From the NCBI GenBank assembly GCA_029747585.1, contig JAPEVF010000881.1:1-18603 (forward strand): DNA of 18,603 nucleotides, given 5' to 3'. Positions 1 through 18,603 of this stretch are shown in pieces. Numbering within the stretch: position 1 is the stretch's first letter; each line of letters opens with the position of its first letter. The stretch comes from Pleurotus djamor (lineage: Eukaryota > Basidiomycota > Agaricomycetes > Agaricales > Pleurotaceae). Under the pieces are notes generated by a model. That model was not told the origin of the DNA. It did no database searches and saw only the letters and a list, made by a program, of their open reading frames with translations. The position numbers and the translations under genes were made by a program.

Positions 1-328
1 TGTTAACAGTGAATAGTGTCTTGATAGGTTTCTGTTAACAGGATATATACTCTTGCTGGATCCCTGTTAACAGCCCCAGTTCCCTCATGGGTCTCTGTTA
101 ACAGCGAGTTCTGGCCTGCTGGGTTTCTGTTAACAGCCATGCTCCCTTGATGGTGCTCTGTTAACTATATTCACACCCTTGTTGCGTTTTGTTAACAGAA
201 TCTTGTTGGGCATCTGTTAACAGACCAGAGGGCTTGTTGGACTTTTGTTAATAATCCTTGCTGGGCCGAATTAACTACATTTTGCAACAACTGTTGGAAT
301 CTGTTAACTCAAGTAGCAGGGATTACTG
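1..328 (-). mobile_element. Right end of a repeat-array DNA transposon (relative of the 3822-7617 element)
   Basis: TGTTAACA-type boxes start at 1, 33, 65, 96, 128, 159, 190, 215, 246 and 302, mostly 31-32 bp apart. A CTTGCTGG-like box precedes several of them, the same two-box unit as in the right arm of the 3822-7617 element. After the last box (302) the sequence ends in ..GCAGGGATTACTG at 328. Read on the minus strand this gives the terminus CAGTAATCCCTGCTACTTGA, which matches the CAGTAATGGGAG terminus of the other element in its first seven bases and in its layout. I infer this is the right terminus of a related but distinct family. The left end lies outside the window, so the 8 bp after 328 (TGATTTGG) cannot be tested as a target duplication. 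No coding potential was seen. Confidence 0.6.
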
Positions 329-2111: not shown

Positions 2112-3821
2112 ATGGCTCGACCCCCCAAGAAGAATAAATCTTCAACACAGCGCCGTGCTCCCTGTCGTTGTAATTGTGGTCGCAATGTCACACAGTCCAC
2201 AGAACGTCGTCATCGCGCCGGAAAAGCAGCACCCCACGTCCTCGCCGCTGCAATCACTCGCCGCCATGAACTCGGTCAAGACTCAGACACAGACGCGTCA
2301 GATAGCGATCCGAATCAAAGCGACGATGAAATGTCCATATCGAGTGATGCCAGCCCTTCAGTCATATCAGACGATGGACGTCGCGGCGCCGATCCTGCAG
2401 TAATACAAGGTACAATGCTACTAGCACCAAAAAGATCGTCATAATATCTCATTTTTATCGATTTTAGACGCAGCCTTCGCCGCCGCCGTCCCAGAGGACG
2501 ACTTCCCTTCCCATTCCAATCACAACTCATCACCCCGACACAATCCCATTGATCTCGAAGAGCATCCTTCCTGCCTCCTTGATGACGACGATCAAGACAT
2601 CTTAAGGAATGCAAATATCCATCTGGATGATGCTGTCAACCCACGTACCTGGCGCCGGACCACAGTAGAAGATTACGACAGCGACGATGACTCTGACAAC
2701 GAGGACCCAGAGCCTGAGGGTGATCTCTTTGAGTGGGAGGCAGACTTAGGCGATCTTTACGATGTACCTCCTGATGAACTCTCCGATGAAGACATCCTAC
2801 CGGGCAACACGATGGAGGAGGAGTATGAACAACTGCTTGCAGCATTTCGTAAGTCATTGTCTATTCTGCGGAGTGAAGCACTTGTCTAATTCTGTAATGT
2901 AGAAGAAGATCTAACAGACAAAGACCTGGCGTTGCTGCGTCAGTTTTCATTCAAAGTTGAAGAACGGATTTCGGACGAGTCCTACGCGAAGCTGTCGTTT
3001 GTCTTTCCAGGGACTACTATATACCCCTTCAAGGTTGCTTGCGCGCGTGCAGCGTTCCTCGCAGAGTTTCGCCCTGTACCCTATGATTGTTGCATCAATT
3101 CATGTTGCTGCTACACCGGATCACTGTCCAAGCTCAATGTGTGTCCATACTGCGGCGAAGACCGATTCGATAGTCTTGATCGACCTCGAAAACGATTCAA
3201 CTACATCCCGCTCATTCCTCGACTACAGGGCTACTATCGCAACAGGAAGCTAGCTGAGCAGATGCAGTATCGACACCAGCACCGCCATGATCCCACCCAA
3301 GTCAATGATGTTTTGAGTGGTTGTCACTATGCGCGGCTACGAAAAACCCGTGTCACAGTGAATGGTGTTGAGCGGCCGTATATGTTTTTTTCCGATCGTC
3401 GTGACCTTCTCTTAGGCATGTCAACCGACGGTTTCGCGCCATTTCGTCGACGCAAGAAGACTTGCTGGCCATTGATCATCTTCAACTATAATCTCCCTCC
3501 CGAGGTCCGATTCCATCTCATCAACATCCTCTGCATCGGTGTCATCCCAGGTCCAAAAAAGCCCAAGGACTTTGACTCCTTTGTGTGGCCTCTCGTTAAG
3601 GAGCTGTTGCAACTTGCTCTTGGAGTTCGCTCATTCGATATCCTCTCTAATGAGGTGTTTGCCCTAAGGGCATACCTTGTCCTTGTGTTCGGCGACATCC
3701 CCGCAGTGTCTATGGTTATGCGAATCAAAGGACATAACGGTGTTCACCCCTGCCGTATGTGCAAAATCCGTGGCCTCCGTATTCCCGACGCCCGGTCGAC
3801 TGTCCACTACGTACCACTTCA
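2112..3821 (+). CDS. Tnp2-type (CACTA/En-Spm) transposase, 5' half, truncated by an inserted element
   Basis: Three exons join in phase 1: 2112-2409, 2468-2848 and 2903-3821, with 58- and 54-nt introns. They encode about 532 residues before the frame runs into the element at 3822. Residues 18-33 hold a Cys cluster (CRCNCG..H), and about 100-226 are strongly acidic. Cys pairs at 289/290 and 307/310 (CPYCG) suggest a zinc ribbon. The block that follows is typical of the Transposase_21/Tnp2 family: YIPLIPRLQ, STDGF with a candidate catalytic Asp at 402, FNYNLPPE, IPGPKKP, GDIPA with a candidate second Asp at 491, then CRMC. Family members cut and paste CACTA elements through terminal repeats. 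The C-terminal half, with the last acidic residue, is missing and not found elsewhere here, so the gene should be non-functional. The last 25 codons of the long open frame (NGSYF..) belong to the element. I did not find CACTA termini. Confidence 0.88.
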
Positions 3822-4475
3822 CAGTAATGGGAGTTACTTTTGTCAACGTGGTAACACCTGTTGTAACACGGCATGGTGGACCATATCCAGCAAGCTGCTG
3901 TAAGTGACATTTTACAGCAAGCATTTTAGAGAGTTAACATTGTTGTGACAAGGATTGTGTTAACAAAATACAGGTATAGCAAGGAGGGAGTCAACATAAT
4001 TGTAGGTAGAATATGTCAGTGTCTACTAGAATACAGCTAGGTTACTAGAATGTTATCAACAATAATCCAGGTAGAATCTCAAATGTTAACAAAAATACAG
4101 GTAGAGCAGCGGAGGAATTCAACATGATTGTACGTAGAATTTGTAATGGTTAACAATGCTACAGGTAGGATTATGATGACTGTTAACCATTACAAAGCAA
4201 GAATCAAGATTGTCAACACAGAGATAGGTAGAATTTTGCAGAGTGTTAACATTATGACAGCAAGAGGCATGATTGTTAACAATGATGCAGGGAAGGGAAT
4301 CAACAGAGATACAGGTAGGAACTTGGTAATCAACATGGCCATAGGTAGCTTCAGGCATAATGTTAACATTTACCCAGGAAGCATGTTGATTGTTGACAGG
4401 AATACACCTAGCCAGATGGTGATTGTTAACATAGATCCAGCAAGCTATACTATTGTCAACAGCAGGCCAGGTAGC
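3822..4475 (+). repeat. Left terminal inverted repeat
   Basis: This mirrors 6964-7617 with only scattered substitutions, and both arms are 654 bp. Similarity stops at the same point on both sides (CAGGTAGC), after which the two arms keep the same box pattern but differ in sequence. The outer ~110 bp (3822-3932) contain no regular box array and include GTAACACC/GTTGTAACAC repeats. GTYAAC boxes begin at 3933. Confidence 0.88.
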
Positions 4476-5165
4476 TAGATGATTGTCAACATAGGCATAG
4501 CAACACCAATTATTGTTAACTGTGTAGCAGGTAGATATATTTTGATTGTTAACATTTTCACAGCAAGCTAGGACATTGTTGACATCAGGGTTTGTAGTTT
4601 CTACCTGGATGTCAACAGAGACATGGCAAGGGATATGCATGTCAACAGAATCACAGGTAGGAAAAAGGTCTTTGTTAACACTTTGACAGCAAGAACCATG
4701 ATTGTCAACAATGGCACATGTAAAAATTCAACAGAGGTGCAGGTAAATTTGTTGTAGTCAACGTGAATGCAGGTAGAACCTGTTCCAGTGTTAACATTTG
4801 CACAGGAAGATGATAGATGGTTGACATTCAGACAGCAAGCACAATCATTAGCGTCCACAGAAATACAGCAAGGGTGATCAGTGTCAACACAAGCACAGGT
4901 AGGTTAGCATTCAATGTCAACATTGTTGCAGCAAGGAATGACATTGTCAACAGCAAGACAGCAAGCTTGCTGGTTCTTGTCAACAGAGGCACAGGTACCT
5001 AGTGGATTAATGTCAACATTTGTATAGCAACAGATTTGATTGTCAACAGAAGGGCAGGAAGCAAAATGTTATTGTTAACATTTAGACATATAGCTTTCCA
5101 TTCATGTCAACAGAGATGCAGCAAGCTATATCATTGTCAACAGCAGCACAGGTAGCATCACACAT
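3933..5165 (+). repeat. GTYAAC box array, left arm, alternating 33/30-bp spacing
   Basis: About 39 units begin with GTTAAC or GTCAAC (variants ATCAAC, GTTGAC). From 4149 the starts are 4182, 4212, 4245, 4275, 4299, 4329, 4362, 4392, 4425, 4455, 4485, 4515, 4548, 4578, 4611, 4641, 4674, 4704. The steps are mostly 33 and 30 bp in turn. Units followed by 33 bp mostly carry CAGGTAG and those followed by 30 bp mostly carry CAGCAAG, so the real repeat is a 63-bp AB dimer. The outermost part (3933-4149) is less regular, with steps of 26-33. Sequence between boxes varies freely, unlike a simple tandem duplication. Confidence 0.85.
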
Positions 5166-5185
5166 TCCATAGCCAATTGCTGATT

Positions 5186-5370
5186 TTGCTACCTGTATTA
5201 GTGTTGACAACAACCAAGCTTGCTGCACCTCTGTTGACAATATCCAAGCTTGCTGCACCTCTGTTAACAATATCCATTTTGCTTCCTGTCCTACTGTTAA
5301 CAATCAAGTTTCTTGCTACAATTTTGCTAACATCATTCAAATGAATACCTTTGCTTCTGTTGACAGTAGT
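5186..5370 (-). repeat. Short GTYAAC box array in reversed orientation
   Basis: About six units read leftward (CTACCTG or CTTGCTG followed by TGTTGACA), directly after the rightward array. The junction near 5140-5186 is an imperfect palindrome: GTCAACAGAGATGCAGCAAG at 5106 is mirrored by CTTGCTGCACCTCTGTTGAC around 5220. The element therefore has an internal fold point that is off-centre. Confidence 0.7.
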
Positions 5371-6260
5371 AGCTCTTGCCATCTATTTCTTTGTCTATGA
5401 ATTAAGATTCTGTCTGGAATCATCCTATTGACTGTAGCATAGTCCTACAGACTTGAATGTCCTCAGAAGGAAACAACGATTTGAGCATAGCTAATCACTG
5501 AGAATGAATAATAAATACTTGAGATATAGTATCTTAACCCACTTCTCAAAGCTTCATTCACAAGTATGCCTATTCTGCAATTGCACCTTGAACCCTTTTC
5601 ATTTGAGAAATCAGATCCATGGTTTCATACTAAAGCATGATATTGATAATAAACAGGTGGCTTTATGGGCATACATTAGTATGAAGCTAGCACAATGGAT
5701 AGGTCAAGGAGAATGCCAACAGTGTTCTAGATCTTAGGGATATGGTTGTTACCTCAATCAGAGTGAGCCCAACCAGAGTAGAAGGTGAAGATCAGAAGAT
5801 ACATCCATACATATAGATCATACAGATGACCAACAGATCAGATATAATAGGAATAGCATGAACTCTGTAGTAAGATTAAACCCAAGATTATTTCAGAGGA
5901 TACTGAAGTATACTTAACTTTCTCAATAACCAGGTATGCTCTACTCACTAACATCTAACCCAGGTTTTCATAGTCATTATAGATTCTAGAANAGGCAATG
6001 ACCTGAGATACTAAGTATGTACAATGGTTTTGGTGNGCTTTTTGGGCATGTTTTTGGTTTTCACAGCTNATAAAATGGTTTCTACAGCTAGTGAGGTAAT
6101 TTTTACAGTAAGAAAAAGGTTTCCACAGTCAACCAAATTATCCCATGCTTTTGGAAGATGATAGTAGACAGCCCCTATTATTTTGACAAAGTTCTCATGG
6201 TAAGTACATTGTCCACATGATCCAAGCAACCACTACTGAATCCAAAAATTTTAACATTTT
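5371..6260. other. AT-rich core of the 3.8-kb element, no supportable gene
   Basis: This ~890-bp stretch lacks the GTYAAC array. The longest frame (5504-5737, 77 codons) has a CxxC near each end but no intron structure, no recognised domain and the AT-rich composition of its surroundings. Ns occur at 5992, 6036 and 6069. If an autonomous copy exists, this is where a transposase gene would be expected; here it is absent or decayed. Confidence 0.5.
6058..6135 (+). repeat. 21-bp periodic YACAG motif array in the element core
   Basis: ACAG cores lie at 6063, 6084, 6105 and 6125, so steps are 21, 21 and 20 bp, each preceded by a pyrimidine run (TTTTC, TTTCT, TTTTT, TTTCC). The stretch ACAGTAAGAAAAA at 6105 followed by a CCACAGTCAA box at 6123 closely resembles 14088-14115, in an unrelated array. 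Confidence 0.55.
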
Positions 6261-6296
6261 CCCACAGTCTGACAACAGTCCCCTTGCTGGCCCAAT

Positions 6297-7510
6297 ATTG
6301 ACAATATTTACTTGGCTTCCTACAATAATGTTAACAGTCAAAATCCTTGCTATGTCTATGTTGACCATATTATTCTAGGTATCTGTAATACTATTAACAG
6401 TCAACATTCTTGCTATATCCATGTTGACAATCTTTACCTAGCTACCTGTGGAATGTCAACAGTCAAAATCCTTGCTGTCACCATGTTGACAATCTTCATC
6501 TGGGTACCTGTACTATTGTCAACAGCAAAAATCCTTGCTGTCTGTCTGTTGACAATATTTATCTAGCTACCTGTATTTGTGTCGACAATCAAATTTCTAG
6601 CTATGTTATTGTTGACAGCTATGATCAAGCTTGCTGTATCTCTGTTGACTATAACATTCTTTGCTGTATTGGTGTTAACAGTCATTATTAATCTTACTGT
6701 ATTTCTGTTGACAACTGGTTTGCTTGCTGCGTCCATGTTGATATTGATCCCCTGGATGACTGCATCTCTATACTCCTTCCTGTATATCTGTTAACAGAGA
6801 AATATATTTACCTGCATTATGTTAACCATAATATTGTTTGCTATGTCTGTGTTGACGAAACTCTTTTCCTATCTGATTGAATGTTGACAATAATCTGTAA
6901 GCTTGCTGCAGTGCTGTTAACACTGATGTATTTTCCTGCTTTAATGTTAACGTAAAGTGTCTGGCTACCTGTCCCACTGTTGACAATAGCATAGCTTGCT
7001 GGATCTATGTTAACAATCACCATCTGGCTAGGTGTATTCCTGTCAACAATCAACATGCTTCCTGGGTAAATGTTAACATTATGCCTGAAGCTACCTATGG
7101 CCATGTTGATTACCAAGTTCCTACCTGTATCTCTGTTGATTCCCTTCCCTGCATCATTGTTAACAATCATGCCTCTTGCTGTCATAATGTTAACACTCTG
7201 CAAAATTCTACCTATCTCTGTGTTGACAATCTTGATTCTTGCTTTGTAATGGTTAACAGTCATNATAATCCTATCTGTACCATTGTTAACTATTACAAAT
7301 TCTACGTACAATCATGTTGAATTCCTGTGCTGCTCTACCTGTATTTTTGTTAACATTTGAGATTCTACCTGGATTATTGTTGATAACATTCTAGTAACCT
7401 AGCTGTATTCTAGTAGACACAGACAGATTCTACCTGCAGTCATGTTGAATCCCTCCTTGCTATACCTGTATTTTGTTAACACAATCCTTGTCACAACAAT
7501 GTTAACTCTC
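6297..7510 (-). repeat. GTYAAC box array, right arm, alternating 33/30-bp spacing
   Basis: Boxes (GTTGAC/GTTAAC/GTCAAC, plus ATTGAC at 6297) start at 6297, 6330, 6360, 6393, 6423, 6455, 6485, 6518, 6548, 6581, 6611, 6644, 6674, 6707, 6737: steps 33, 30, 33, 30, 32, 30, 33, 30, 33, 30, 33, 30, 33, 30. In the first half of the run CTTGCTR precedes the box after each 30-bp step and CTACCTG the box after each 33-bp step; from 6644 on, CTTGCTG or TTTGCTG is used throughout. The part from 6964 onward is the right terminal repeat. Orientation is opposite to the left arm. Confidence 0.85.
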
Positions 7511-7617
7511 AAGAATGCTTGCTGTAAAATGTCACTTACAGCAGCTTGCTGGATATGGTCCACCATGCCGTGTTACAACAGGTGTTACCACGTTGACAAA
7601 AGTAACTCCCATTACTG
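6964..7617 (-). repeat. Right terminal inverted repeat
   Basis: This is the reverse complement of 3822-4475. It ends ..AACTCCCATTACTG at 7617, followed by unrelated DNA leading to gene X. It carries an N at 7264 in a region where the left arm reads unambiguously. Near-identity of the two arms suggests a young element or arm-to-arm gene conversion. Confidence 0.88.
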
Positions 7618-7755
7618 AACATCCATGAGCGTTGACGTATGACCAAGATCTGCCCACATACTTTGGGACGATAACCCTTTCGCCCCCCTAGACGTCCCAA
7701 CGCTTTTAAGCCAGACAGCTCACTCTCCTGCTCCTCATTCCTTAGCTCTCTTACC

Positions 7756-9153
7756 ATGTCTGTCATCGCTAACTCCGATGTTTCCAACCGCTCTCCTTCT
7801 CCTGCGCTTTCTTACACCTCTTCCAAATCTTCGATGATGGATGTCGAGGATGAGCTCCTCGCCGTCTCGCCAGCCGTCCACCACTATTGCAATCCAATGC
7901 TCCTTATACCAGGGGGCGGCTCTGTAACCTCCCTATCAGGACCTTTCCATGTGGTCCTTATGGGCAACATTGCAAATATTGTTCCCTCTGACTTTCGGTG
8001 TGTAAACCGTAGCTCCTCACCATGTTCCTCATCCATTCTGACCAATTCTCTTTCAGTGATGCTGCTCTTCAGTTAAAACAGAAGGGTGCAATTGTCGACA
8101 CATTCTTCACGCTTGAGGATGCCAAGCTGGCATATAGATGGATTTGTGGGGAAATGCATCCCTGCAGGCCACATTCGGACAACCGCGAGTATCATCGGTC
8201 GCTTATGACATACCTTGCGAACGACCCTCCTTCGTATTGCTCACCGCTTCCTCCACCTCGTAACCTTCTGCCGGAAGAGGACGATGACGATGCAATCAGC
8301 CTTCCCCCCAGTGAGATCTCGGAGCAATCTCCCATGCCTAGCACGCCAAGCAACTCCGCACCCTCCCCTCCGGCCTCCAGTTTCCCTTCCAGTAATGACG
8401 ATATCAGCAACGACGAAGACGATTCAATGAGCAATGACGGAACCGACTCTGTGAACGACAACGACTCCATTATAAATGACTCCAGCATTCAGGACGCTGA
8501 TGACGAACCCAATCTTAACGAGGACTATATCTACGGCGACCGCGCTACTAACAACAACATGTTTGCCAACAATCACTTCAGCTTTTCGCTGCTCATGGCC
8601 CAAGACTCAGAATCAGGGTATGAATCAGACAGCTCAACCATGGAAAGCCTTGTTGACAGCCTTCGCTACCCAACTCCTGATAATGCAAGCGATCCTATTC
8701 CGGGCCGTGGACCCTGCCAACTCGTTCGCATGGAAGATCACCGCTCGGTATTATTTGTCAATCAGTGAGTTCTATTCTATACCTCCATGCTTGCTTTTCA
8801 CAGCTCACGGACTTGCTCTCAGGCCCGTTGCTCTCCTGGTCTTTGCCGAGACATACAAGAAGATCCATTACGGAGACATCGTCTCCTCGCATGGTGTTGT
8901 GGGTAGCATAGATGCTGTCGTACGTAACGGAGAGACTAGGCTCTTTTACGCCGTTCGGGGAGAATTTATCAAGCGTTATTTCTCTGATCGGTAAGTTGCC
9001 ATTGCCAATTCACATCTACTCGATTTTCTCACCTTTTTTCATAGGTATCTTGCCCAACAATTCTTTGAAGAGGAAGCCCAGAACTGGGCTTTTGTCGACA
9101 TGCTGATTTTCACAGTGAGGGATGAGGCCAGGCGATTTGCTGGATTGATTTGA
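7756..9153 (+). CDS. Gene X: four-exon gene of unknown function (408 aa)
   Basis: Exons 7756-7997, 8057-8764, 8823-8990 and 9045-9153 join in phase 2 at all three introns (59, 58, 54 nt) and total 1227 nt, ending in TGA. The start lies after a pyrimidine-rich leader and is the first ATG of the frame. The N-terminus (1-35) is Ser rich. About 65-115 is a compact segment (FHVVLMGN .. KQKGAIVDTFFTLEDAKLAY) with a faint resemblance to viroplasmin/RNase H1-type N-terminal domains. About 150-260 is acidic and Ser/Asp/Asn rich, probably disordered. The C-terminal third (VSSHGVVGSIDAVV .. LFYAVRG .. NWAF) is the most protein-like part. I do not recognise the family. It starts 138 bp after the element's right end, so the element could supply upstream sequence. 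No frame break was seen. Confidence 0.75.
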
Positions 9154-9472
9154 AGCAAGGATGGGGACTTCGGCTAGATTGATTTTAGACATTAGACGGC
9201 ACCTTTAGAACAATAATAGATTCCCAAAATATTTTGAACGGTCCGGACCACTGATCCGAAATTGTAATCAGTGATCGAGGCTCTTGAGATCTTATCTCGA
9301 CGCCAAGGACCGTGACTTTGAGTCACAAATAACGGTCACGTCTGTCTCTATCATGACTCTTTCCACCTCTTTTTATTCCCTCTTCATCATCGACTGTCAA
9401 CTGCCCTCTCAACTCTTTCAAATCACTGGCTGTCACGACTCCTAACTTGTAACCTCGCCTCCGAACGTTACG
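9154..9472. promoter_or_regulatory. Gene X 3' region and gene A upstream region with a GTGACT(N3)AGTCAC palindrome
   Basis: The 319 bp between gene X and gene A carry a perfect interrupted palindrome, GTGACT-TTG-AGTCAC, at 9312-9326, about 150 bp before the gene A start codon, and a further GGTCACG at 9334. A symmetric GGTCCGGACC lies at about 9240-9249. The pyrimidine-rich stretch 9335-9420 looks like a fungal 5' leader. The palindrome has the form of a dimeric (bZIP-like) binding site, but the binding protein is unknown. Confidence 0.35.
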
Positions 9473-12400
9473 ATGGCTTCTGTACAACCGGATGCCCAGA
9501 AGAAGAAGCGTGGCAAGAAACCAAACTTCAGCAGTCAACGCCTTAGTTTCTTTGAATCGCATTGGCCTGAATACCTCTTGAAGTCGGCGGACGGTGTCAC
9601 GATCCGTGACAGGTCCCCTAGCTCCTGTGGTCACGTGACACCCCTATACCGCCTGTCACGTGACTCACGGATCTAGTGGACCCACCGCGCAGTAGTTACA
9701 TAAACGGACCCGCCATTGTTCTTTTAGCCGAAGCCTCATGTAGCATAGTATATATAGTTCCTTATCCTTGTATTTGTTTCCTTAGCTCGTTTATAGACGT
9801 TTTCACCTATCCTCTCTGATCCTCGTCCGGCCTGACGACCCGACCCGGACCCGAGACGACTTGGACCTCCTCCACTCGTCGCCCTCCTTCTCCGCCTCGT
9901 ATCCTCGGTCTTGCACCCGGCCTGGTACACCCGAGCCCGGAGTGTTAGTAGGAGTCCAGCGCTGCTCCTCAGTCGCTGTACTCGTCCTATCCTGTTCACT
10001 CGGCCGTCATCTCGGCCTGCGCTCGCCCCTATAGCCCCTCTCTGGATAGGGACTAACAGACGGCAAGGTTCAAAGCTGGTACACCGACACGTTGTTTCCT
10101 GCGTACTGGGAGAAGTTTAGCTGGAAGCTGCCGCTACGTGAAGATCCACCACCAAATCAAGATGATGACGCGTCAACTGGAGCTAACGACGTCGAGAAAC
10201 TCACACCATCGCAGAAGAAGGAGAAGGACTCGGTTGTAGCAAAGACCACTCAGGTACGTTGTTATCTCCTTTTTAGCCCGCTTGATATTGATGATAAGTC
10301 GATTATCTAGGCGATCAAAAACTGGTTCAACAATAATCGTGCCAAAACTGGTATTGTCATCAGCGAAGCCTGGATCCCCTTCCTTTCCATGCTGCGCGAA
10401 CATTGCAAGGACCCCCCGCATCGTCTCCGCGATTTTCAGTACTATATGCGGCATCCCACCTATAAGCCGGTCGTAAATGCAGCCTTCGACGAACAGTGGC
10501 CTGCTGCGAACCGTGACAAAGCCCAGAGTCTTGCGTTCCGATGTGAAATCGCCGCGAAGCTTTTGTCTGGAGAGCCGGAGGAGGTTCGAAAGCGGTTGAA
10601 AGAGGAAGCTGAGCAGGAGTACCAGGAGGTGTTGGCGCGGTTTGAGGAAACAACTCCATGGGATGATCAACAAGATCCCCAACTTCGTGCTGAGTATGTC
10701 GCTTTTTCGCCTCACCCATCTCTATTGGTCTTATCACTGATTTACAGGGCGATTGGTACCCTTTCGGCTCTGGTCCAACCACTTCTCAACGGTATACGCG
10801 CCATGACTGGATTATACGTCCAGTTCACCGCCGTCGCTCCGTCTGACAAGGTAGATTCTATTCAATGCTATAGGTGAGCTACTATCTTTTATCTTTTCTG
10901 AGGCAATCGGCACACTTACAATATGAGTTAGTATCGGTTCGGGCACCATGCCGGACGGACGCACTTTTTCAGATGCAGATAAGGCAGGGTTCAAGACTTT
11001 TTCTACTTTGTTTGTTCACTATGCCATGGTAGCTGCTGGTCGTACGTATTTGCGCCCATCTCTATTTCATTCCCTGACTGACACACACTCTTCTTAGACC
11101 TCAACGCTTCCGTATTCAAACAAGGAGAGGGTACAATCCCCGTGGCATCCACTTCATCACCTCAGAACGTCCCCTCCTCCACCACCCTTCCAGCTGTTGC
11201 TGCGCCCCTACCCCCACCTACCATTGCTCCCCCTCCACCCGCACCTATTGTCGTTCCTCCTCCCCCTCCAGCACCTGTCATTCCTCCCCATCCCACACCT
11301 CCTGCAGTTGTTCCGCCACCTGCACCTCCTCTACCTGCACCAGCTCCTCCCATCGTTGCACCTCCGCCTGCTCCCATTGTTTTTCCACCACCACCACCTG
11401 CCGTGGTTCTACCTCCTGCTCCCGCTGTCGTTCCACCACCACCTGCTCCTGCTGTCGTTCCACCACCACCTGCTGCTGTGGTTCTACCTCCTCAAACACC
11501 CGAACCCAACGATCTATCCCCTCCACCCCCCTCAGTAGAAGACGATGCTGAATCAAGAAGCCCCCTGCGAGATGGATCAACAAATCGAGAACTTTCCACC
11601 TCCGCGTCCACCACTTGTCTTCTTTTCACCTACGACGAAGATATATCTCGACGCCTCCACGCTACAGCGTTAGCGGCTGGAATCACCAACGCCGAGCCGC
11701 TCATCGCCGCTCTCAACCGACTACCCGTGGAAGAAAGGAGGAGGGCTGTTGAGGGCTACGTCTCGGGGGATCTAGACGCGATCAGGGAGGATAATCGAAA
11801 AGCGATGAAGTTGGAAGTTTTAAAGGCCCTTGATTTCACCGTGACGGCGGGGAGGAGTATTAACAACCAGAGGATTATATCCCCCCCTTCTTCACCATCA
11901 TCAAACCACGACACCCCTTTGCCATCTCCCTCTACATTCAACGATTACCCATCCCCTTCTCCATCTGCCTCGCAGGACCGTACTCCCACACCATCCGCTC
12001 CTTCCACCCCAACCGTTAGACGCAAACGGGCTAATCAGCAAACTTGCCGTCCAACCCACGTCGTCCCCGACTACAGTACCACCTTCAAATCAACAGCAAT
12101 GAATCGCAAGCGTGTCCGTATAGTGTCTCCCACTCCCAGCGACATCAACTCACAGCGCGACCATCCCCTCACACCCACCGATGCTTCGTCAACGGATTCT
12201 CAGTACGACCAGTTGGATTCGAGTGGGGTCGACGAACCCGGTGTTGTCAAAGTACCCGAAGCGGGTGCTATCAAAGTACCCGAGTGGTTCCAGACGGCGT
12301 TCTCTGCCTTCGAAGGACAGGCCTTCGGCGATCAATGGAAGGAGGCGCTGTGTTTATGGGAGGTTCATGAGCGTCGCACCAAGTTCAAAGACGTATGTTT

Positions 12401-12897
12401 CTTTTCTATTTCAGCCTTTGAACTTTGATTAATGAAGCATAAAGGTACCTCTCCCCAAGTCGAAGCGCCGACCTCCCCAAGTTGCGGATTGGATCAAGCA
12501 CGCACGATTCCACAACAACTACGATCGCGATGCAGACATCAACAACGTCGACATGTTTTCTACCCAATGGTGGGCGTGGTGGCAGGATTTGAATCCCAAA
12601 TGGCACCAATGGAAAGGTGGTCGACCAGTAAGAAGCAACAATAATGGCGAATGGGACCGAGCCCTCGGTTCTACAGGCAAGAACGGCCTCTTGAGCATCT
12701 TCACTGCGTTGCTGTGGTGGCGACGAACGGCCTCGAGTCCATCATGGGATGAGGCTATCGCCGACGTTGCGTACGTTCTTCAAGAGGCTTTCAATGACCT
12801 CGATGTTGAAGAACCCCCACGAAAACGGTAAGTCTTTGTGCCTCTCTTATGTTCTCCAGCTCATGCTTCCTTCCCCTCTAGTTCTCGACGTGATTAG
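9473..12897 (+). CDS. Gene A: long two-part hypothetical protein (874 aa), exon 1 interrupted by a solo LTR
   Basis: With the LTR and one target copy set aside, exons 9473-9594, 10064-10253, 10311-10693, 10748-10873, 10932-11041, 11098-12392, 12445-12827 and 12882-12897 total 2625 nt with no frame break. Introns are 52-58 nt, phases 0,2,2,1,0,2. Residues 8-17 are a KKKRGKK nuclear-localisation-like run. Residues 45-63 and 105-310 form the conserved N-terminal part, including IKNWFNNNRAK at 106 and FQYYMRHPTYKPVV. About 343-458 is a PPP-A/V tract, then a Ser/Pro-rich linker. From about residue 715 comes WFQTAF..FG..W, WI.HARF, QWWAWW..LNPKW and NGLLSIFTALLWW. This is the pattern of a family of unknown function that is abundant in mushroom-forming fungi. 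The final 16-nt exon (KRSRRD-type end) is inferred; otherwise TAA at 12829 ends it. The reading frame past the LTR is intact, so the insertion is young or tolerated. Confidence 0.8.
9590..9594. repeat. Target-site duplication GACGG, left copy
   Basis: GACGG directly precedes the TG of the LTR and is repeated directly after its terminal CA at 10059-10063. Five base pairs is the usual duplication length for LTR retrotransposon integration. Confidence 0.92.
9595..10058. mobile_element. Solo LTR (464 bp) inside gene A exon 1
   Basis: The insert starts TGTCACGATCC and ends GGGACTAACA, so it has the TG..CA ends of a retrotransposon LTR. It is flanked by perfect 5-bp direct repeats GACGG at 9590-9594 and 10059-10063. 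Removing the insert plus one GACGG restores an uninterrupted frame (SAD-GKVQSWY). The 5' end is a perfect hairpin, TGTCACG-ATC-CGTGACA (9595-9611). Two TCACGTGA palindromes follow at 9631 and 9656, and a TATATA lies near 9749. No internal retroelement region, primer-binding site or second LTR is present, so this is a solo LTR left by LTR-LTR recombination. Superfamily (Gypsy or Copia) cannot be told from the LTR alone, and strand is unknown; the TATA position favours plus. Confidence 0.92.
10059..10063. repeat. Target-site duplication GACGG, right copy
   Basis: Perfect copy of 9590-9594. Together with the LTR end it forms CTAACAG, which resembles a branch point fused to a 3' splice acceptor. 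Confidence 0.92.
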
Positions 12898-13213
12898 TGC
12901 CTACTCATCGTCGTCTACGCCGTCACCGTTATCTTCGTCGCCATCGCCATCGCCATCGCGCTCATTACCATCTAGTTCTTCGTCACTGTTGCTTTCTTCT
13001 TGCATACATCTCTTGGTTTCATCGCATATCTCTCTTTCACACCACTCCTACCATTGCTCTTCTCTGTTCTTGCCTGCTTCCTACTCTCCCATGCTATATC
13101 ATNCCCCCCAATGGACTTCTATGCTTTCGCTTCATACATCTCATTTCTTGGAAATTACCCTATAGATCCTCCTAGCCCCTAGTTAGTCTGGGTGACTGGC
13201 ACAAGTCCCCGCT
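12898..13213. repeat. Gene A downstream region with short CGTCGCCATCG-type microsatellite
   Basis: 12906-12965 is built of TCG, CCG and CCATCG units, clearest as CCATCG repeated three times near 12940-12957. The rest is pyrimidine-rich and reads open as Ser/Pro-rich frames only because of that composition. An N lies at 13103. No gene is supported. Confidence 0.5.
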
Positions 13214-13640
13214 ACATAATCCTTCATAATACATTACCACTGGGGATCTGCCCCAAAGTACATTGTTCACTCTGTCTATAATACATTATGGGTGGAAAGT
13301 AGGTGATATTATATTGTACATGGGAGGTTGCCCAACACTTGTCTGTTTTCGGCGTTTTGAGAGTCNAAAAAAAGTTTCTTAAAAAGGAAATTCTTCATAA
13401 TGTATTATGCTTGGGAGATAGCCCATCACCTACCCCTTTTCGGTGTCTAGAGAGTGAAAAAAAGGTTACCAAAAAGGAAGTCTCATAATATATTGTACAT
13501 GGGACATGGCCCAGTACCTATGGTTTTTTTGGTGTCTAGAGGGTCNAAAAAAAACTTACCAAAAAAGGAAACTACCCCTAGATGCTCATAATATTATGCA
13601 GAATAGGCCATAATATATTACAAGATTGGCCCAGGATATA
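13214..13640 (+). repeat. Degenerate tandem repeat, ~90-100-bp unit
   Basis: Units begin with CATAATATATTRTACATGGG or a close variant at about 13303, 13396, 13484 and 13587, so steps are about 93, 88 and 103 bp. Shared blocks in order are: CATAATRTATTR, TGGGA..TRGCCCA, TTTTCGGTGTCTAGAGAGT, a 7-8-bp A run (N at 13366 and 13546), RSTTACCAAAAAGGAA. Partial CATAAT starts also occur at 13214, 13224, 13276 and 13609. This looks like a decayed satellite or minisatellite. No coding potential. Confidence 0.65.
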
Positions 13641-14085
13641 ATTCAATGAACCTTGGACCATTACCCACCTGGTAATTTATTAATCCCACAGCAAATGGTG
13701 GTCTTGAACGGTTGTCGGGCCACGCGTCGGTTCGCTTTGTCACGGCCACACAACAGACTCATGTGAACTCATGTTTTCTCTCATGTTTTCTCTGTTCCCC
13801 CAAATATATGTGGATGCGAGCGAAACATACGGACGAGCGAAACATACCAAAAACATACTGAAGTCGCGTAACATGTAGCGTCATGCATCAAAATATATCT
13901 TACTTAAGGTGATCGTGATAGGCAGGTCAGTTGGTCGACAGTAGGAGCATTCATCGAGGCGTAGTGGCATTGATTGCGGTGATATGACGCTGGCACTGAC
14001 GCTCACAGCACTGGTGCCAGCATACAGATACAAGTCCATTTCATCAGCCAATCAGCAATGACGGGTATCGCCACTGCCGACGCTC
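13641..14085. other. Stretch without a supportable gene
   Basis: Only small local repeats were seen: TCATGTTTTCTC in tandem around 13768-13793 and GAGCGAAACATAC twice around 13818-13848. The palindrome-like CACTGGTGCCAGC follows a TGGCACTGACG near 14000. No exon structure or RNA gene was seen. Confidence 0.4.
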
Positions 14086-14520
14086 ACACAGTAAGAAAAA
14101 ACATCCCACGGTCAATGGCTGTTTCTCAGGATAAGTACATCACTCTCACGATAAGCAAGATTTGGAACCCGCAACTGACGATCGGCAGGATGTCTCACGG
14201 TCAATAGATTTTTCTCAGAGTAAGTAAAGCGGTCCCACGGTAAGGAACATTTGTACTGCTCACCTGTCCTTTCATACCAGTAGCGCGGTCGCTCGGTCTT
14301 GTAGGCGAACATTCCCTGAATCCAATCTACCGCTGTCTCCCAACTGTCACATTATGGGGACAAACAATCGAGTGGGTGCAGATTCTCACGGTAAGAAATG
14401 CAATCGACGGCGTCGACGAAAGGGTCTGTCTCACGATCACAAAATCTATCCCACGGTCAGTAAACCTGACCCAATCGGATGGGTGCTGCACAGGTGCCGA
14501 AATGATCTGATATCCCACGG
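14086..14520 (+). repeat. 20-bp periodic YYCACGGTMA motif array
   Basis: A motif of the form (T/C)(C/T)CACGGTMA(G/A) recurs with its central A at 14088, 14108, 14128, 14148, (14178), 14197, 14217, 14237, then 14388, 14407, 14433, 14453 and 14517. Steps of 20 bp dominate, in the same orientation throughout. The gap 14240-14380 has only weak motifs. The pattern resembles subterminal binding-site arrays of DNA transposons, but I could not find clear element ends. There is an N at 14538, and a (TA)n run lies at about 14585-14599. Reading frames here are by-products of the motif spacing. Confidence 0.6.
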
Positions 14521-14814
14521 AGAAGCTGTCTCCAATGNCCCGCGGAGAGGCATGAATGAGCCGAGGGGCAACAGAAATGGTTTTATATATATATATATTG
14601 GTGTCCGCTTTAATGCGTATTTTTTACAATATTTTATTCATTCTTTTGATTTTTCTGGTTCAATCCAGGATTTACTTTTTCTCTGTCATTTGTCAGCAAC
14701 TCCCACGCATTTTGCCTGGAATAATCCAGAGACCATGCCTACGGAATTCCTGGATCTTTCCACCTTGCTAGGCCTAATAATACAGTCTAGGCTGCTAGCG
14801 ATTTCGTTGGCTAA

Positions 14815-15230
14815 CGGATCATTAGTGACGACGCTATCCAACTTTTCCGATCTTTCCTCCGCAAAGGAGAACACGGTGATTACCGCGAGTACTCAATGGC
14901 CACCCTCCATAACATGCGTAGCGAAGCTTCTGACACGCTCTACTATGGCGTACACGGCTATTACTGCTTTGGGGTATTTGATGATCGGTTCGTTCACTTT
15001 CCTTGATCTTTTTTACTTTCAGGGTACTCAAACGGCCTTGTTAGCGGTGCTGCCCTTCGAGTTCTTCAGGCCGAAACCGAAGACTGGCATTCGAGCTCAA
15101 CACAGACTACCTCAAGGCACATCACTGGGCATACAGAGTACACCCAGATCTTGCCAAAGCTACTCATAGGCGCTTTGAAGTCGGCTTGGAGGGCGATGAT
15201 GATGTTGTCTTGGAGGCGGATGAATTTTGA
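14815..15230 (+). pseudogene. Decayed gene fragment, possibly a relative of gene X
   Basis: Three protein-like open stretches lie in different frames. 14815-14973 (SDDAIQLF .. REYSMATLHNM .. LYYGVHGYY) ends at a GTATTT donor. 15025-15087 (GYSNGLVSGAALRVLQ, ending EDW) lies just after an intron-like CTTTCAG. 15087-15230 (AFELNTDYLKAHHWAYRVHP ..) ends in TGA. Joining the first two by the visible splice sites is out of phase by one base, and the last two need a one-base shift at TGG/GCA. LYYGVHG and the following WAF parallel LFYAVRG and NWAF near the C-terminus of gene X, and it lies upstream of gene B as gene X lies upstream of gene A. The relation is a judgement by eye. A sequencing error could explain one of the two breaks. 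Confidence 0.45.
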
Positions 15231-15770
15231 TAGCCATGACTTCGCCCGAAATAGCTTTTAGAAATTTTTATGGTGTTCCTCAATATACTAGTTTGATCCT
15301 TAAAATGGTTTCGGTGCTTTTCTTGCTAGTAATAGGGTCATCATTAGGGACAAGGCATAATAGGGACTACATATAGGGACAGAGATAGGATGGTGAATGC
15401 CGGTAATATATGAGGACACGAACAGTGGAGCCAGAGAGAAGATACACCGAGTGTCGGATTCAGATACTGGAAACCCCCGAGTAATATACGCAAAGATGCG
15501 AGGAGCGGGGCGCATGAACAGGGCAACAAACTCGATCCAACGGTGATCGGCAAACAGTTCAATAGATCCTCGATGTGAAAGAGACTAGGCGTACCGTCGT
15601 TTGGGATTGACACTAGCATTTTGTTGGGGAAGAAAATAGAGAAAAAATAAGGTCCAGTAATCGGTCACCAAGGAGGAATCGCTGAGAGGGACGCCCGAAT
15701 CATCACTTGGCGTACCTCAGAACCTACCACCAGACATACACCTACTGCCTTCAATTCTTCATCCACGAAC
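15231..15770. other. Gene B upstream region without a supportable gene
   Basis: 540 bp with no convincing exon on either strand. It includes short GGGAC(A/T) repeats around 15348-15383. A leader-like stretch with ACATACACCTACTGCC lies just before the gene B start codon. It should contain the gene B promoter and probably the 3' end of the decayed gene upstream. Confidence 0.35.
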
Positions 15771-18438
15771 ATGGCCGATTCTGACATTCCAACTCCAGCT
15801 GAGGACACTGAGATCGGTACTGCCAACACCGGGAACTCCATACCAACTGGAAGTTCTTCCAGCACCGCCGTCCCGCAGAATACTGAACCCTCTATTCCAT
15901 CTTCCACCACTACTCCTCCGTCGGCAATGACTACCGTTCCTCGGAAGAAGAAGCGATCTGCTGCGAAGGCGCCTAGCAAGCCGAAGGATGAGCCTCCGAA
16001 GAAAAGAGGAAATAAAGGCGACTTTACGGGGTATCGTCTTCAGGTCCTTGAAGAAGAGCTTTCGAACTACTGCAAGGCCACGGCTACAAACGCAAACACT
16101 GTCCACACATGGTTCACGCTGCAGTTCTTTCCCCGCTACTGGGACAAGTTTCACTGGTCAGTGCCGCTCAACAAGGACACCTCAGATATCGTCGGACCTC
16201 TCCTACCGAAAGAAGATGAATTACTGTGTCCCGAGCAGCGCAAGGTCAAGAAGGGAATGGTTGACGCAGCCATGAAGGTAAGCAACTTGATAACTTCAGG
16301 GGATGCCCCTTCGTCGCTCCTAAGTACTGAAAATCATCGTCAGAAAATCAAATCTTGGTTTAACTATCGTCGTAACGCCTTGGGACTCAACAATGGGAAG
16401 GATCCCTGGAATCCTCTCCTAGAAAAGATCCGGATGCTCAGCGATGCACCACCAAGGAAACTCAGCGAGGGCCAGTTCTATATGCTTCATCCTGACTTCA
16501 AGGCCAAGGTCGACGCGATTTTCAATGTGAAATGGCCTGCTTCGGAGTTACCAGAGTCCCATCGTATGGCGTTTCAATGTGGAGTGTCGCAGGAGCTGCT
16601 GGATGCTGAGGGAGACAAGGTGAAGGCCAGGATAAGAAAGGAATTAGACGCCTCACACGCTTTGGACCTTCAAGACTACCACAAAGGCATCTGGGTTGAG
16701 GATGCGGATCCTGAGGATCGAGCCAGGTGAGTAACCTTTCATATACTCATAACGCGTCTGTAACGCTTTGGCTGACACCCTTCAGAGCAATCTCGTCAAT
16801 GGCACCACTCCTTCAGCCCTTGCTTGATGGCATTCGCGCTGTCACGGGGCTTTACTGCGGTTTTTTTGCGGCAGCCCCTCCGCCGAACGGGAAAGTCGAG
16901 GACATCAACTGTATATGGTGCGTATGAGCTGTAATTTATGCGTATAAGAGTCTAACTGCCACTACCATAGTCTCACATCGGGACAATCAGTTGAGAACGG
17001 CCAGGAATTATCCCAAGTCGACCCGAAAGGGTTCAGTCAAGCTACTCGCCTCTTTGTCAGATCGGTCGCGATTGCTTCAGGCTGTAAGGACTTAACACAA
17101 TAACTCGAGCGCAAACAGATCTGACACCCTATTTTCTATACAGATCGTGATCCACGAACGAGAGGGACAGGCGTGTTGGAACCGGAGACCCCTCATATCA
17201 CTCGCATTATCACCAATCCCTTGGATCACCAGTCATCGACCCCGTCTACCCCGATTGAAGGCCGTATACCACCACTCGTCACATCTACATCCACTTCCGC
17301 TGCCCATCCTTCTTCTGATTCCCAATCCGGCACGACGCACCCCGCAGAACCGCTCGATCCTATTGCGATCATCAGGTCTCAGCTCAAAGATATCCAGTTC
17401 CCTATTGGCGATGCCCTCATCAACGCCGTGGCAAAGCTTCCCCCAGCGAAGAAAAAAGCTCGCATACGGGAGCTGAAAGCCATGGACAAGGTTGAGTTTG
17501 AACGAGCCAACAACATCACCAATAATGCGGTGTTGTTGACGAGCCTTGGTATCAAAGACGCGTCATCAATTTTCAGACCGCCACCGCGTCCATCCTCAAT
17601 CGAGCCATCAGGCGACGAGGCCGATTTCGCACCGAGCAGCTCATTGAAACGCACCGCGAAGCAAATGCAAGCACCCCAGGACGCGCGTCTTACTCGAAGC
17701 AAGGCAACAACGTCCACAATGACCACAACAAACTCAGTACCAAGTACGATCACTGAAAACGCCAACGACTTGATGGATGGAGATGGCTTGGGAGATTCTG
17801 CGGAGCAGGACCATGGGTTCGAGGACAATTCGAACGAGACCAACGATGACGAAGAAGCTGATCCAGATGTTCAAGGCCCTGCCGATTTCGAGGAGGATGA
17901 GGAAGCTGAGGGTGTCGACGATGATACCTCAACGGTGCAGCCACAATGGTTTACAAGGTCGTTCGAAACCTTCTCCAGTGTTGACGAGGGTGATTATGGG
18001 CCAACATGGATGCGGCTGCTGGATCATTGGGCTTCATTGGATGCCGACGCTTCATTCGAACCGAATGTGAGTTTCATCTTGTATTCTTTCTGGCACCCCA
18101 TTCTGATCGTTTGCGCAGGGACTTCTCCTCACCGCCAAGAGCCGCCCATACGAAATTCTATATTGGATTAAGTCAAAGCATCCCCTCAGTCGGCCAGCGG
18201 ATATCAAGGATCCTGTCGCGTTTGGGGAGAAGTGGTGGGCTTGGTGGATTAACATCAATCCTTCCTGGCGTCGAACAAAGAATGGGAAATCCTTGAAACG
18301 TTCCCGTTCGGGTCTATGGGAAGAGGACCTACCCGTGACTGGCCTCAATGGGATCCTTAGCGTGATCGCTGGCCTGTGGTTCTGGCGGGAAGCTATCAAT
18401 ACGTCGGCAGCGCTAGCCAGCTGGCAATCTGCTGTTGC
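15771..18438 (+). CDS. Gene B: paralogue of gene A, C-terminus interrupted by the 3.8-kb element family
   Basis: Exons 15771-16277, 16344-16726, 16786-16917, 16971-17083, 17144-18066 and 18119-18438 give about 792 residues before the break. Introns are 52-66 nt with phases 0,2,2,1,0, the same order and phases as the first five introns of gene A, at matching protein positions. Residues 1-70 are Ser/Thr/Pro rich with a PRKKKR nuclear-localisation-like run at 57-62. Then come the conserved blocks TWFTLQFFPRYWDKFHWSVP, IKSWFNYRRN (about 171), FYMLHPDFKAKV and LLQPLLDGIRAVTG, an acidic linker (EEDEEAEG..DDD), WFTRSF..FS, EKWWAWW..INPSW and NGILSVIAGLWFW. There is no Pro-rich tract like that of gene A. 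The frame stops inside an Ala codon after SWQSAV, where the element begins. By comparison with gene A about 26 residues are lost. Probably a recent loss of the C-terminus. Confidence 0.82.
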
Positions 18439-18603
18439 CAGTAATGGGAGTTACTTTTGTCAACGTGGTAACACCTGTTGTAACACGGCATGGTGGACCA
18501 TATCCAGCAAGCTGCTGTAAGTGACATTTTACAGCAAGCANTTTTAAAGAGTTAACATTGTTATGACAAGGATTGTGTTAACNAAAATACAGGTATAGCA
18601 AGG
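18439..18603 (+). mobile_element. Left end of a second copy of the 3.8-kb element, cut by the window edge
   Basis: From CAG at 18439 the sequence matches 3822-3986 almost base for base, with a few substitutions and Ns at 18541 and 18583. Similarity starts exactly at CAG, and the upstream sequences differ (gene B here, the transposase there), which fixes the element's terminus. Whether it carries the same arrays and core cannot be seen. Confidence 0.9.

Follow-up and report, generated by a model that had tools for sequence, protein, structure and literature searches.

Results

A transposon with arms lined by a bipartite site

The window analysed here is the whole of an 18,603-bp stretch of the Pleurotus djamor genome (assembly GCA_029747585.1, contig JAPEVF010000881.1, forward strand), and it contains a DNA transposon, the first copy of a family designated F1, in which both arms iterate one short bipartite site (Table 1). 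This copy spans 3,796 bp between the ends CAGTAATGGG and CCCATTACTG, its termini being set by comparison with related copies on contigs C593 and C598, and the tip sequence CAGTAAT stands at both ends of its inverted repeats. The original prediction had recognised a transposon at 3933-7510; the nature of the element stands, while its borders are corrected to 3822-7617. No recognisable genes were found within it, and it encodes neither a KDZ (Kyakuja-Dileera-Zisupton) transposase nor a CxC cysteine cluster. Nevertheless, the sequences that it shares with other families suggest that it is a derivative of the KDZ superfamily.

Exact GTYAAC or GTTRAC boxes occupy 69 distinct positions in 3933-7510, compared with a mean of 2.5 and a maximum of 7 across 500 shuffles. 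The boxes form part of a longer site, GTYAAC-N7-CAGSWAG. When at most one mismatch was allowed in box 1, and at most four across the 13 fixed bases, the element contained 84 such sites (40 left, 6 in an inner inverted cluster and 38 right), against a mean of 4.5 and a maximum of 12 in 200 shuffles; an earlier estimate of about 80 boxes is therefore accurate once degenerate ones are included. The opposite strand of the three site stretches yielded 29 passing sites, largely because GTTAAC is a palindrome.

Table 1. Features of the window, with the orientation of each and the observation that defines it
Feature	Position	Strand	Remarks
Whole element, F1 copy 1	3822..7617	.	Inverted repeats and comparison with C593 and C598
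Left terminal inverted repeat, 658 bp	3822..4479	+	97% to reversed 6960-7617
Left site array, 40 bipartite sites facing inward	3842..5155	+	First site at base 21 from tip
Inner inverted cluster, 6 sites facing back to left arm	5189..5364	-	
Array-free core	5421..6240	.	3 and 1 permissive site matches on its two strands
Right site array, 38 bipartite sites facing inward	6283..7597	-	
Right terminal inverted repeat, 658 bp	6960..7617	-	Partner of left repeat
F3 right arm and terminus, site at 31/32-bp spacing	1..328	-	
Start of F1 copy 2, continuing on C593	18439..18603	+	7-bp duplication CTGTTGC (window orientation)

The sites fall into two unit types, A (GTYAAC-N7-CAGGTAG-N13, 33 bp) and B (GTYAAC-N7-CAGCAAG-N10, 30 bp). 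In both, box 2 begins 13 bases past the start of box 1, and the 3-base difference in length falls 3' of box 2. Neighbouring 30 and 33 bp spacings alternate in 22 of 25 pairs in the left arm, where the pattern mostly holds from 4055 onward, in 21 of 21 in the right arm, and in 26 of 26 on C598; none of 20,000 permutations matched these values. The distance between pairs of boxes peaks at 63 bp in both arms, and Tandem Repeats Finder detects the 63-bp dimer as a unit. The second box also varies with the spacing, as xTAx accompanies 33 bp and xAAx accompanies 30 bp (left arm, 11/4 vs 2/13, p 0.0025; right arm, 9/3 vs 4/11, p 0.021; C598, 13/1 vs 1/13, p 1e-5), with no significant association in the inner cluster, which is too small (p 0.4). 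Hence the alternation of spacing and the linked alternation of the second box, both of which had been originally proposed, were recovered, as were the 63-bp autocorrelation peak and the persistence of the phase in a diverged genomic copy. The two arms had also been regarded as independent stretches. This applies to their inner parts, but the outer parts constitute a single 658-bp inverted repeat, meaning the arms are not fully independent, and the independent support for alternation comes from the inner arm parts and C598.

The same site and terminus in four families

This site is not peculiar to F1, but is common to four families that differ in its spacing. A genome-wide scan for GTYAAC-N7-CAGSWAG found 113 matches, compared with 16 for the reversed control. 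Family F2, on C207, is 2,785 bp long, with spacings of mostly 42 and 32 bp and a 7-bp target duplication, GAAGTGG; family F3 (C899, C1252, C143 and the left end of the window) has spacings of 31 and 32 bp; and family F4, on C493, has a 140-bp unit holding several sites. With the families registered on box 1 alone, cross-family agreement was 0.54 in the box 2 columns, 0.32 in the first filler and 0.29 in the linker, against a background of 0.26. The 114 GTYAAC boxes outside elements have no box 2, with at most 0.07 bits per column. Judged by this column agreement, what F1-F4 share is the bipartite site, and not the filler.

The ends of the four families align as CARTAAT-N7-ACTT-N2-RTYAAC (one end only in F4), and base 21, counted from the tip, is exactly where the first RTYAAC box begins in every family. 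The earlier description of arms lined with repeated recognition-like sites is strengthened by these two boxes being common to four families, and by this fixed first position. Allowing at most one mismatch, the terminus pattern occurs at 31 places genome-wide, and at one for the reversed control; as the pattern was built from F1-F4, its 22 exact places recover these same families, and the novelty lies in the nine one-mismatch places. Five of these nine (C85, C695 twice, C868 and C1153) were already known as variant termini, and the other four (C423:732-757, C539:26234-26259, C585:161832-161857 and C650:4187-4212) are possible new families.

Short or gene-less relatives of F3 lie at window 1-328 and on C143, C899, C1252, C108, C331, C843, C847, C1155 and C1277; several F3 members are at contig ends, and the assembly probably breaks on arrays. 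The cores of F2 and F3 share AT-rich pieces (L044 3040-3920 and L046 400-2350), about 75-94% identical in parts, and hence these gene-less families are related beyond their arms.

KDZ transposase and accessory genes at the termini

The 106 KDZ matches in the genome reduce, after manual merging, to 62 loci on 59 contigs. Three KDZ matches lie inside, and none outside, at up to 10 kb from the 31 termini (Poisson p 0.005, post hoc). On C493, a CxC2 domain (E 7e-37) directly precedes the KDZ domain, and both lie just within the F4 array and its terminus at 13045; the combination of a CxC cysteine cluster with a KDZ domain is present here, and hence in F4 only. On C345, a KDZ match at 1246-1918 lies between GTTAAC triplets at 18-119 and 7760-8555, with a terminus at 8749, and on C868 a KDZ match at 16345-17140 is inside a terminus at 13842; both of these loci are known from pattern positions and domain matches alone, with box 2 and orientation unread. 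By comparison, of the 22 hAT matches in the genome, three are near termini, with none inside and all three outside (compared by eye). These are dimerisation domains just beyond the termini, at C899:18935-19069, C1252:3764-3895 and C868:8371-8544, and perhaps reflect nested insertion.

A second gene recurs in the same settings. C598 is the only F1 copy with coding sequence, which is a tryptophan-rich (W-rich) accessory gene inside its array, on the minus strand. This gene has six non-self matches (C847, C345, C493, C1002, C266 and C505, the last being weak, with E 2e-4), four of which (C345, C493, C1002 and C505) are within 10 kb of a KDZ match (binomial p 3.5e-6, post hoc). The accessory and KDZ genes read apart in C345, C493 and C1002, though not in C505, and the match on C847 falls inside an F3 terminus. 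No Pfam family scored above its cut-off for the accessory protein, a search for its homologues returned one match, its own gene model, and the same search with its relative in the window returned none. The last 339 bases of its contig (C598:57228-57566) belong to a dispersed repeat that cuts the accessory gene region and recurs, at 96-99%, on nine or more other contigs.

Other F1 copies and neighbouring genes

A full second copy of F1 lies on C593 (53886-57652), with two blocks that are 97.5% and 97.7% identical to copy 1, and a 7-bp target duplication between symmetric CAGTAAT ends. As the right end of the window (17862-18603) overlaps C593 at 99.6%, the window enters this copy at 18439. When the flanks of copy 2 are joined, one reading frame is open through the junction; joining the flanks of F2 in this way gives stops in all frames. 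Copy 2 is inserted in a W-rich gene (window 17173-18438) that is a distant relative of the C598 accessory gene (25% identity to its protein, E 4e-8, from a single comparison). A composite transposon formed by the two copies around 7618-18438 was rejected, given that copy 2 alone has the 7-bp duplication and the open joined frame. The copy on C598 is diverged, being 93% identical over the outer 270 bases, with a different inner array. To the left of copy 1 is a Transposase_21 (tnp2, CACTA-type) gene at 2932-3821, the domain match of which ends shortly before the element and therefore outside it; the frame continues into copy 1, and the gene is apparently cut by the element.

Conservation of the boxes and helical phase

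In the window, the information content of boxes 1 and 2 is 1.62 and 1.32 bits per column for A units (n=22), and 1.65 and 1.47 for B units (n=28), with corresponding filler values of 0.52 and 0.60; the sites were chosen by motif, which favours the boxes in this comparison, yet nearly all of the 30 and 33 bp slots are filled. Pairwise identity of the filler is 0.41-0.43 in the window, versus 0.59-0.60 in C598. It is also nearly flat with the distance between units, falling from 0.46 at lag 1 to 0.37 at lag 12 for A units, and ranging over 0.40-0.47 for B units. Hence the original observation that boxes and phase are kept while the filler varies is sustained, and recent tandem duplication of whole units, including their filler, is unsupported.

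Helical phase was assessed over periods of 10.2-10.8 bp, against a null applying one random shift per distinct spacing, and excluding the C593 and C1162 arrays as near-copies of those in the window. In F1, the best period is 10.50 bp in both window arms (R 0.67) and on C598 (R 0.81), with p values for the three arrays of 0.018, 0.019 and 0.047, of which the two arms share their outer part. In F2, it is 10.60 bp (R 0.93 and 0.97; p 0.001 and <0.0005), with spacings of 21, 31-33, 41-42, 54 and 64 near whole turns, and 24 off. F3 has best periods of 10.38-10.66 bp (R 0.68-0.80; p 0.15, 0.05 and 0.04 for three stretches that overlap in sequence), and F4 of 10.80 bp (R 0.59; p 0.01). Pooling all distinct spacings of the tested arrays gave p 0.0009 for F1-F3, 0.42 for F3 alone and 0.04 for F4 alone. 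A single helical phase in every family was thus not found: F2 gave a strong signal and F1 a modest one, while that of F3 was borderline and that of F4 weak. The idea that all sites face one side of the helix holds for F2, where phasing is likely, and is more modestly expressed in the window family (p 0.02-0.05), where it is plausible.

Discussion

A probable derivative of the KDZ superfamily

We interpret 3822-7617 as a non-autonomous DNA transposon of the KDZ superfamily, the arms of which iterate a predicted 20-bp recognition site of the KDZ machinery, and assign this reading a probability of roughly 0.68. Related elements that share this motif and these ends flank or adjoin KDZ transposase genes, making the motif a likely docking site for that enzyme; on this comparative evidence, the candidates for the binder are the KDZ transposase and its accessory partner. 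A mechanism in four parts can be proposed. Firstly, a KDZ transposase, perhaps via its CxC2 cysteine cluster, would bind the box that lies two helical turns from the cut. Secondly, further transposase or accessory molecules would load on the arrays at intervals of about three turns, joining the ends. Thirdly, the array would have grown by duplication of a 63-bp dimer, composed of a 33-bp A and a 30-bp B unit, giving the 33/30 alternation. Fourthly, selection in mobile ancestors would have kept the sites and their rough helical phase while the linkers drifted.

Several observations weigh against this interpretation. No copy of F1 with a transposase gene was seen among those in this genome, and the link between F1 and KDZ runs through shared termini, the shared site and the accessory gene. 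The KDZ match on C493, and the weaker pieces on C345 and C868, contain stops when read in six frames, owing perhaps to introns or to decay. On C493, some 8 kb separate the accessory gene from the KDZ gene, and the left end of the element was not seen. The target duplication is missing in two of the four complete elements read, namely F1 copy 1 and F3 on C899. The helical phase is borderline in F3 and weak in F4. Finally, between F1 copies 1 and 2, boxes and filler have changed at the same rate (24/1014 and 40/1721 bases), and hence no deficit of box changes was seen between recent copies. Three other comparisons lean in that direction without significance (arm to arm, 3/234 vs 17/425, p 0.06; C1162, 3/156 vs 13/222, p 0.07; C598, 7/78 vs 27/222, p 0.54). 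The two recent copies may be merely drifting, in which case constraint on the boxes would be visible on a long time scale only.

KDZ elements are large, frequently carry additional genes and, in mushrooms, are associated with TET/JBP dioxygenase genes. In the excerpts of the published descriptions compared here, Kyakuja elements have 7-bp duplications, 5'-CA..TG-3' termini and Agaricomycete hosts (Kojima 2025, PMC12730594). F1 copy 2 and F2 show the same duplication length and ends in an Agaricomycete, and KDZ genes occur inside related elements here; however, two Laccaria families of Kyakuja are reported to be without inverted repeats (PMC12730594), whereas F1 has repeats of 658 bp. Zisupton and Dileera have 8-bp duplications (PMC12730594), while that of F2 is exactly 7 bp and F1 copy 2 has 7 bp between its symmetric CAGTAAT ends. 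The excerpts on Cryptococcus KDZ1-KDZ3 provide a precedent for long inverted repeats, of 139-241 bp, in KDZ elements, although these have duplications of 8 bp (KDZ1) or 4-8 bp, and CxC1 rather than mainly CxC2 (PMC12810828). The literature compared also includes a paper on Ectocarpus with giant KDZ elements (PMC12477816) and one on a Marasmius transposon (PMC9674265). CACTA and Plavaka elements, with 2-3 bp duplications and CAC, TGT or CATCA ends, are disfavoured by the 7-bp duplication and CAGTAAT tips. Hence the window element is filed as a probable KDZ derivative, on the basis of its shared ends, site and accessory gene, and not as a Kyakuja.

Parallels for the arrays

In En/Spm (CACTA) transposons, the short TNPA sites are likewise arrayed subterminally and serve a protein that the element itself encodes. 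In the excerpted descriptions, EnSpm elements differ from those studied here in having 3-bp duplications and CAC ends (PMC12730594), rather than 7 bp and CAGTAAT. The nearest functional parallels are Hermes and VANDAL/VANC. In Hermes, a hAT element, a multimeric transposase binds numerous short sites that extend inward from the terminal repeat at both ends; its BED domains bind subterminal repeats, one of them within the right inverted repeat (PMC10368747). However, the excerpt describes 17 and 14 AAGY sites in an arrangement that differs between the ends, whereas here there are long regular arrays of a 20-bp bipartite site. VANDAL/VANC is a Mutator-like plant element system with an anti-silencing role, and the passages compared mention no dimer alternation (PMC5735166). 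The terms "tandem repeat" and "subterminal" are absent from the main text of PMC12730594, as are "tandem" and "subterminal" from that of PMC12810828, and the excerpts of KDZ literature compared give no recognition site for a KDZ transposase. At the level of titles and abstract openings, no description of site arrays in KDZ elements was found, though the founding papers on Zisupton and KDZ may hold one.

Alternative readings of the arrays

By analogy with VANDAL/VANC, the arrays might be where the W-rich accessory protein loads, rather than end sites for the transposase; this protein, whose gene lies near one arm, would protect the element from silencing. The accessory gene does adjoin an array in C598 and C345, and lies near a terminus in C847, but the fixing of the first box at base 21 in F1-F4 is better suited to the recognition of ends, and the protein matches no Pfam family above its cut-off, making this explanation unlikely.

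Less probable still is that the array is a roleless satellite, in which slippage or unequal exchange has multiplied a 63-bp unit within a transposon arm and the boxes are alike through shared descent. This reading can draw on the detection of the dimer by Tandem Repeats Finder, and on the equal change of boxes and filler between two recent copies. Yet it is already disfavoured by filler of 0.41-0.43 identity alongside boxes of 1.3-1.7 bits per column (at sites picked by motif), by the retention, in four families with unlike linkers, of both boxes at a distance of 13 bases and of the base-21 box, and by F2 spacings that hold helical phase.

The ends of hAT elements often begin with CAG. Nevertheless, a non-autonomous hAT origin, with subterminal repeats for a BED-type finger, is disfavoured as very improbable: excerpts describe 7-bp duplications in hAT7 families (PMC12730594), and Hermes supplies the precedent for such binding (PMC10368747), but the three hAT matches near termini are all outside the elements, the reverse of the KDZ pattern.

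A candidate recognition code

Within the KDZ reading, a further possibility is that the arrays are a two-component code, in which A (CAGGTAG) and B (CAGCAAG) sites would be bound alternately, on a single helical face, by the transposase and its W-rich partner or by the two members of a heterodimer. The resulting kilobase filament might pair the ends or shield the element from silencing, with families keeping the code and phase while re-growing the array. We offer this tentatively and consider it doubtful. Duplication of a 63-bp dimer would explain the 33/30 alternation no less well than the dimeric or two-component binder originally suggested; the arrays would then have been re-grown in dimer steps, before drifting.

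The site nevertheless recurs in four families, at base 21 and iterated dozens of times, and so represents a ready candidate binding substrate, for which the accessory W-rich protein would be a candidate second protein. The arrays permit a test of whether the helical phasing of transposase sites is selected. The shared site and ends also tie gene-less elements to their likely autonomous partners within one genome.

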